From a virus: a DNA stretch of 23,629 nucleotides. The notes beneath the pieces are model-generated. The model saw nothing but the letters and a program-made list of their open reading frames with translations. It ran no database searches and had not been told where the DNA came from. Made by a program: the position numbers and the translations under genes. Below are positions 21,918 through 23,019 of this stretch, piece after piece. Position 1 is the stretch's first letter. Every line of letters begins with the position of its first letter. The DNA is taken from the IMG/VR virus record IMGVR_UViG_3300022220_000022, positions 1 to 23,629 of that record; one strand, given 5' to 3'.

Positions 21918-22448
21918 TTAGTTGGTTCTATTCAAACCTAATCGTTCAGCATCTTCATGGAGAAGATTTAGTGCTGCTTTGTTTTCGTCTTCTACTTCTT
22001 TAGCTTTAAGTTTACCTTTAGCTACTGAGGCTGTGTCTTTGTCTAACCAACCCTTGTCCAATAGAAGCTTGGCTGCACTAAAGGAACTTCTTCCGTTAGA
22101 CTTCATCTCTTCAGCTATAGCCTTGATAGCTTCTGACTTGACCTTAACCTCTACCTCTTTTCTCCATCTGGATATGTGAGGCTTAACTCCTGATGCTGTT
22201 GACACGTTCTGCCATACATCCCAAGAACCAAAGACTGTCTGAGCAAACCCGTACTCTGTAGGGTCAGCTGGAGCCATCTGTAGGTATAGCTTTTGTAATG
22301 ACAAGTACATCTTGCCGTGAGCTTCTAGGTCTCTGTCTTTAAGAGTAAACACAGCATCCTCTGTACCTGAGTAACATAACTCATAGAATAAACTCTTGGT
22401 CTTTGTCTTGCCGTTAGAGCCTTTGAAGTTTTCGTACTGGAACATCAT
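21918..22448 (-). CDS. terS: Terminase small subunit (predicted), 176 aa
   Basis: The protein has a pattern I associate with small terminases of aquatic phages: FTLKDRDLEAHGKMYLSLQKLYLQM, then DPTEYGFAQTVFGSWDVWQ, then WRKEVEVKVKSEAIKAI and a final AAKLLLDKGWL segment followed by a charged Lys/Glu helix. TerS rings recognise the packaging site and stimulate TerL. It is the first gene of the leftward operon, right beside the control region, where a packaging site could lie. Two adjacent ATGs (22448 and 22445) are possible starts; AAGAG is the only purine-rich site upstream and is weakly placed. A 98-nt gap, larger than the rest of the operon, follows. Confidence 0.72.
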   Translation of the reverse strand: MMFQYENFKGSNGKTKTKSLFYELCYSGTEDAVFTLKDRDLEAHGKMYLSLQKLYLQMAPADPTEYGFAQTVFGSWDVWQNVSTASGVKPHISRWRKEVEVKVKSEAIKAIAEEMKSNGRSSFSAAKLLLDKGWLDKDTASVAKGKLKAKEVEDENKAALNLLHEDAERLGLNRTN

Positions 22449-22482: not shown

Positions 22483-22512
22483 AGTATACCATGGGTGTGA
22501 TATATATGTCAA
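22483..22512 (-). promoter_or_regulatory. Main leftward (late operon) sigma70-type promoter
   Basis: On the minus strand TTGACA (22512-22507), 18-nt spacer, TGG-TATACT (-10 at 22488-22483, extended by TGn). The region upstream of the -35 is a run of TTTA repeats (22514-22532), like an UP element. Predicted start near 22476 gives a 28-nt leader before terS. Five of six -10 bases and all six -35 bases match consensus. Confidence 0.75.
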
Positions 22513-22561
22513 CACTTTATTTATTTATTTATGGTATATTGTTGAAATACATCTAAAGGTA

Positions 22562-22590
22562 TTGACACAAGTAAGAATAGGGTGTATAAT
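22562..22590 (+). promoter_or_regulatory. Perfect-consensus sigma70 promoter, rightward
   Basis: TTGACA (22562-22567), 17-nt spacer, TATAAT (22585-22590). Predicted start near 22597. Nothing that looks like a real gene follows before the terminator at 22764-22802, so it appears to drive a small RNA. It is back-to-back with the late promoter, 49 nt between the two -35 boxes. Confidence 0.85.
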
Positions 22591-22601
22591 TTCATTACTA
22601 G

Positions 22602-22612
22602 CCGCCAGGCGG
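22602..22612. repeat. G/C-rich palindrome at the rightward start site
   Basis: CCGCC-A-GGCGG, a perfect inverted repeat in an otherwise AT-rich region, 5-15 nt downstream of the predicted start. It may be a repressor operator or the 5' hairpin of the small RNA. Confidence 0.55.
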
Positions 22613-22616
22613 TATA

Positions 22617-22628
22617 AGTATATATACT
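22617..22628. repeat. 12-bp perfect palindrome
   Basis: AGTATATATACT, immediately after the G/C palindrome. All A/T apart from the ends, so it could arise by chance, but it is among several GGTATA-type motifs around both divergent promoters. Confidence 0.4.
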
Positions 22629-22763
22629 ATAGTAATACCAAGGTATAATCCATTACTCTAATGTCTATCTAAGCTTGGTAGTCTACGCAAGGTACTTACG
22701 GTAAGTCTTAGGGACACGTCCAGATTCTACTGTAAGTCCCCCACCCATACAGATCTTACATGC

Positions 22764-22802
22764 AGCCCACCACTGGTTAACTCCTTTGGTGGGTTTCTTT
22801 TT
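22764..22802 (+). terminator. Intrinsic terminator of the small RNA
   Basis: Stem AGCCCACCA (22764-22772) with TGGTGGGTT (22787-22795), 9 bp with one G-U, loop of 14 nt, then TTTCTTTTTT (22794-22802 region). The orientation is rightward; no matching A-run would make it work leftward. A second CCCACC (22740-22745) could compete for the 3' arm. Confidence 0.85.
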
Positions 22803-22856
22803 GCATGCCTAAGAAAATCCTTAGAAAATGTTTTGGTACAATGTACATATAGAAGG

Positions 22857-23019
22857 ATACCCCCTAGCCCCCTTGGTCAATACCCTAGTGTTGCACAAAT
22901 GTTACACTCCAGGTAGTTGCAAAAGTACAACACTGTGGCAAATCCATCGCAGTGTTGCAGGAATGACACAGGGATGCTTGAAGATTGTCAGGGCAATAAT
23001 ACCCAAGCAATACCCAAGC
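22857..23019. repeat. Iteron-like direct repeats, ATACCC(n)AG family
   Basis: ATACCCCCTAG (22857-22867), ATACCCTAG (22880-22888) and ATACCCAAG twice in an exact 11-bp tandem AATACCCAAGC (22998-23008, 23009-23019), all on the same strand. The 11-bp period places the last pair on one face of the helix. Confidence 0.6.
22928..22957. repeat. Stem-loop / inverted repeat
   Basis: CAACACTG (22928-22935) with CAGTGTTG (22950-22957), perfect 8-bp arms extendable to 11 bp with two G-U pairs, loop of 8 nt. No U-run follows, so not a terminator. Confidence 0.65.

Follow-up and report, generated by a model that had tools for sequence, protein, structure and literature searches.

What does a free-standing transcription unit, with a perfect promoter, a strong terminator and no gene between them, do at the edge of the late operon of a tightly packed phage genome? 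This question is raised by a 23,629-nucleotide stretch of viral DNA (positions 1 to 23,629 of IMG/VR record IMGVR_UViG_3300022220_000022), the whole of which is called the window here. A first-pass annotation had proposed a phage-encoded small RNA at this place. The window comes from a cobavirus (Zobellviridae, Cobavirinae, Veravirus-like), and its portal, terminase, capsid and tail genes match those of Lentibacter phage ICBM2, of the Roseobacter phages CRP-4 and CRP-5, and of relatives. Comparison with such phages leads us to conclude that a functional noncoding transcription unit very probably exists; it is best described as a stand-alone noncoding RNA gene of Veravirus-type cobaviruses, apparently confined to one cobavirus branch. 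For this comparison a viral contig collection was scanned with the neighbouring late protein, which gave 41 and then 80 related loci, and further loci were added from a search with the terminus motif. Removal of near-identical copies left about 40 forms, and 37 representatives were used for the promoter statistics. The features of the locus are collected in the table.

Table. Features of the RNA locus and its surroundings (positions in the window)
Feature	Position	Strand	Basis or remark
First late gene, 176 aa, phrog_8035	21918..22448	-	phrog_8035, E 2e-37
Divergent late-operon promoter, TTGACA-18-TATACT	22483..22512	-	
Sigma-70 promoter of the RNA gene, TTGACA-17-TATAAT	22562..22590	+	12/12 match
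-35 hexamer TTGACA	22562..22567	+	
-10 hexamer TATAAT	22585..22590	+	17 nt after the -35 hexamer
Predicted noncoding RNA, about 206 nt	22597..22802	+	start inferred 7 nt after the -10 box
5' hairpin GCCGC-CAG-GCGGT at transcript start	22601..22613	+	
Conserved box AGGGACACGTCCAGATTCTAC, proposed contact site	22710..22730	+	recurrence in relatives
Intrinsic terminator, stem AGCCCACCA/TGGTGGGTT with inner GG/CC, then T-run	22764..22802	+	
Direct terminal repeat, terminase cut site at 22840	22840..22997		inferred by homology to ICBM2

The promoter that had been claimed is the only 12/12 sigma-70 match in the window. Weaker sigma-70 matches are about as frequent as expected from shuffled sequence (43 vs 50.7), so the perfect match alone is weak proof and could be chance, and the case therefore rests on the comparison with the relatives. 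There the promoter is conserved. The hexamers are spaced by exactly 17 nt in 37/37 distinct representatives, TTGACA is exact in 35 and TATAAT in 32 of them, and pairwise identity reaches 98% and 95% in the -35 and -10 hexamers as against 46% in the 17-nt spacer. Judged from this pattern, the promoter of the RNA gene is under purifying selection.

Folding bears out the strong same-strand terminator that had been placed about 170-200 nt after the promoter. Its stem-loop (22764-22795) runs into TTTCTTTTT, which ends at 22802 and whose first two T still belong to the stem. Its folding energy in RNAfold is about -18 kcal/mol, and the element starts about 170 nt past the inferred RNA start at 22597. 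The internal loop in the helix is probably the reason why it escaped a simple terminator scan. Among the relatives the terminator is the most strongly structured element (mean z -4.3). The 24 relatives with simple terminator stems have 14 distinct stems, and when arms are swapped between relatives only 57% of the terminator pairs are kept; the own side of this test is 100% paired by construction, and thus only the stem diversity and the comparison with shuffles count. Both sides of the stem have changed and the pairs are kept. These are the compensatory changes that the annotation had suggested to look for, and they argue that the terminator is selected.

The unit almost certainly makes an RNA and no protein, as far as its reading frames tell. 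No ORF of at least 15 codons lies in the window RNA, in keeping with the annotation, and no ORF is common to the relatives at this locus. A small protein gene missed by ORF rules is hardly credible: some relatives have chance ORFs of 15-51 codons, but none of these is shared, and this lack of a shared ORF largely refutes the idea. The related phages therefore offer the opposite of what the annotation had named as evidence against an RNA, namely a conserved ORF here and no compensatory changes. The annotation knew of no RNA family with this sequence, and Rfam likewise has no match in the window at the gathering cut-off, nor in 22550-22830 even at E<=5.

The homologous units are predicted to be about 118-260 nt long, and they share no fold beyond the RNA ends. 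The whole window RNA folds with -55.9 kcal/mol (z -2.1). A 5' hairpin of at least 4 bp is found in 30/38 representatives, with 14 distinct stems and a mean z of -1.6. The best-hairpin score at the 5' end is 11.0 vs a maximum of 9.2 in 300 shuffles, with control windows further into the RNA also somewhat raised. The 5' stem covaries little (in a gap-free set of nine sequences a single pair has changed on both sides), and the minimum-energy fold of the whole window RNA pairs the bases of 22601-22613 differently. With the 5' region aligned in MAFFT, RNAalifold gave no consensus structure because the hairpins shift register in the alignment; it was replaced by the arm-swap test and the gap-free subset. 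The middle of the RNA is plastic and grows by short repeats. Of the at least four hairpins that had been proposed for the unit, the terminator and usually the 5' hairpin are thus common to the relatives, but the middle is not.

One element upstream of the terminator recurs nevertheless. A box of the form (G)GACAnGTCCAGATTC, a CAGATTC-like motif near GGACACGTCCAGATTC, is present in 23/35 representatives, where shuffles lead to an expectation of 1.9, and in three more it is visible by eye immediately beyond the scanned segment. L140, L120 and ICBM2 have about three copies of it. A sub-clade (L109, L118, L122, L125, L129 and L134) has GGACACTTTCGTTTTC in place of the box, and L123, L135 and L065 are without it. 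In the predicted fold of the window RNA the box lies inside a hairpin and is partly paired. Two ideas about the box were given up. Base-pairing of its flank TTACNGTA with TACTGTAA in the window clade finds no support, since the central position varies between G, T and C without compensation, and a resemblance to the 3' end of 16S rRNA, seen in some relatives, is not shared by the window. Promoter selection, terminator compensation, the recurrent box and the lack of an ORF and of an Rfam match together support the earlier view of a free-standing noncoding unit at this place.

The annotation missed the restriction of the unit to one cobavirus branch and also its genomic position: it abuts a direct terminal repeat. 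The annotated repeat of ICBM2 is 159 bp long, begins with ATTGTACATACAG and ends with GGGGAAAT; the window counterparts are AATGTACATATAG at 22840 and GGGCAAT ending at 22997, which gives a repeat of 158 bp, and window 22800-22878 matches ICBM2 in blastn. The repeat signals at 22840 and 22997 mean that the window spans a joined genome end. By this homology the RNA gene is placed at the extreme right of the linear virion genome, immediately ahead of the right repeat; the early genes right of the unit (23217 on) would be the left genome end, joined by assembly. The annotation was right in giving the genes further right their own promoter, though in the virion they would lie at the opposite end of the genome. 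In every case the RNA unit has the divergent late-operon promoter on one side and the terminase cut site on the other. The late promoter is found upstream in 37/37 representatives, 33-69 bp from the RNA promoter, and the distance from the terminator to the cut site is usually 35-45 bp, reaching about 120-140 bp in ICBM2 and L135. In L126-L128 an extra gene separates the first late gene from the late promoter, and the RNA unit still lies between late promoter and repeat; we count this in favour of an RNA gene. The first late gene lies directly upstream of terL in PQ867845 and apart from terL in the branch of the window. From position only, one might guess that it is a candidate small terminase. 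Its AlphaFold model (pLDDT 74) has no fold match in the PDB and matched only uncharacterised viral proteins.

Two further observations concern the repeats themselves. At the start of the terminal repeat, the window (22813-22870) and L052, L053 and L055 have a motif like GAAAATCT...TGTACAT/GCAC...CCCCC. From the sequences compared, this type of motif seems common to Zobellviridae (Pseudomonas PA11, Klebsiella Asterion, Vibrio PS32B), and it is likely the terminase recognition site. Palindromes TGTGATCACA are repeated several times in or beside the terminal repeats of L112, L118, L126, L150 and others; they were not seen in the window.

The unit is also found in the cultured phages ICBM2 and CRP-5. 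CRP-4 has a weak, diverged version, and L152 has no clear unit. In the Siovirus phages ICBM1, ICBM3, SIO1 and P12053L, late promoter and repeat are present and a rightward promoter is absent from the locus; Siovirus shares terminase, DTR type and cut motif, and its portal is about 68-70% identical. The basal cobavirus record T5S1 has the leftward promoter only and is without the RNA unit at the locus. A sequence model of promoter and 5' end detects the unit in 16/18 records searched and is not exhaustive, since it misses two records in which the unit is visible by eye. A search for the RNA unit elsewhere (R1) gave no match in ICBM1, P12053L or the fetched SIO1 segment. Outside the unit, the model finds a related leader (CCTTGGCAGGG..AGTATA) behind a perfect post-capsid promoter in ICBM2 and CRP-5 (L001 28557-28596 and L002 28040-28083, both on the minus strand). 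The window has no post-capsid promoter of that kind, and the other records searched gave no clearly supported leader of this sort. Siovirus phages and CRP-4 have a conserved sequence, CATCGGCAARCAAACACCG ... AACCTGAGTTACYGAGCAAGSCCTAGCAANCAAG, in a stretch without ORFs that separates the terminal repeat from the first early promoter (L046 173-600, L048 ~1496-2100, L047 ~1400-1669); the stretch has no Rfam match and is possibly another RNA. In ICBM1 an annotated hypothetical protein of 41 codons (39779-39904; L045 480-605) covers part of the late promoter region and is unlikely to be a real gene.

How might such an RNA act? We see an even chance that the RNA, its ends protected, accumulates and works in trans by way of the box. 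Host RNA polymerase would make the RNA of ~206 nt; the frequent 5' hairpin would shield one end and the terminator hairpin the other, which would let the RNA accumulate. The terminator would at the same time keep transcription out of the cut site and the terminal repeat. The GGACAnGTCCAGATTC box might pair with or bind a host RNA or an RNA-binding protein and in this way favour infection, and the middle would serve as a plastic spacer, growing by short repeats and, in a few relatives, multiplying the box. Pairing of the RNA or the box with the translation starts of ICBM2 and CRP-5 was no better than that of shuffled RNA; a host RNA or a protein is therefore the likelier partner, and the case for action in trans rests on anatomy. 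Well-known examples of phage regulatory small RNAs come mostly from temperate phages and prophages of enterobacteria. The cobavirus unit resembles them in its host-type promoter, intrinsic terminator, lack of an ORF and location inside a phage genome, but it belongs to a podovirus family, in which no lysogeny module was seen, and no sequence relation was found. Phage-encoded regulatory small RNAs have been reviewed (PMC12197685).

The main rival to a trans-acting RNA is an element that acts in cis at the terminus. Transcription that runs toward the repeat and halts at the terminator, about 40 bp short of the terminase cut site, would aid the replication or maturation of concatemer ends, and the RNA would be a by-product. 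We consider this possible, if rather improbable. T7 has a right-end promoter, phiOR, and a pause site at the concatemer junction, and T7 RNA polymerase, pausing there, is thought to aid concatemer-end maturation. The cobavirus promoter likewise lies near the right terminal repeat and reads toward it, and the constant place of the unit between late promoter and repeat, with its end usually so close to the cut, fits this comparison, as does the argument that cobaviruses replicate via concatemers like T7 (PMC6775973). Unlike phiOR, however, the promoter of the unit is of the host sigma-70 type, and an intrinsic terminator stands ahead of the repeat. The annotations of ICBM2 and CRP-5 list no RNA polymerase gene, and SIO1 was reported to be without one (PMC6775973). 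The longer terminator-cut distance in ICBM2 and L135 speaks against the terminus reading, as does Siovirus, which shares terminase, DTR type and cut motif and yet, like T5S1, is without the unit; the conserved box and the plastic body would be left unexplained. It is somewhat less likely still that the unit represents a hitherto undescribed class of terminus-linked RNA that helps, itself or by its transcription, to choose, cut or duplicate the terminal repeat; such a class would concern phages without their own RNA polymerase.

The locus might instead be a control region at the DNA level. The inverted repeat just after the -10 box could be a DNA operator, in which case these repeats would serve a phage regulator of the divergent promoters and the terminated transcript would be a spacer or insulator that shields the early genes on concatemers. 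The divergent promoter pair in all 37 representatives, the similar leader that ICBM2 and CRP-5 have behind the post-capsid promoter, and AT-rich inverted repeats such as CTATAGTACATACTATAG in ICBM2 agree with it. However, a strong promoter kept merely for a stop 200 nt further on would be an odd insulator, the 14 kinds of 5' stem vary widely, unlike an operator for one protein family, and the post-capsid leader lacks clear support in other records searched. We therefore hold this explanation to be unlikely. A packaging RNA in the motor, beside the cut site and the likely small-terminase gene, is very improbable. Its model, the prohead RNA of phi29, is similar in size, is also encoded at a genome end and has a host polymerase promoter of its own. 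But phi29 has protein-primed ends and cobaviruses have direct terminal repeats, and the cobavirus unit varies about twofold in length and also in its body, the relatives sharing no fold beyond the ends. Close relatives with the same packaging genes, Siovirus and T5S1, manage without the unit at the locus, and a packaging RNA is disfavoured for this reason.

Our search of open-access papers on cobavirus transcription or small RNAs found nothing on this locus, and no noncoding RNA was described for cobaviruses in them. The published cobavirus study determined the repeats and names no promoter, sRNA or intergenic RNA there (PMC6775973). It does describe a bidirectional terminator between two genome arms, likewise a transcription signal of these phages, but this one marks the other boundary of the arms, near the middle of the genome (PMC6775973). 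The RNA family is thus new, in that it is undescribed in the libraries and open-access papers searched, and its general kind is a known one. Phages of the Roseobacter group, the cobaviruses are widespread in the sea. The unit is present in ICBM2 and CRP-5, cultured phages with cultured hosts, and is therefore directly testable; ICBM1, without the unit, infects the same Lentibacter strain as ICBM2 and offers a natural comparison. If the RNA acts on the host, it would be a new tool of phage takeover. A role at the terminus would show how phages that lack an RNA polymerase of their own couple transcription to the processing of their genome ends.
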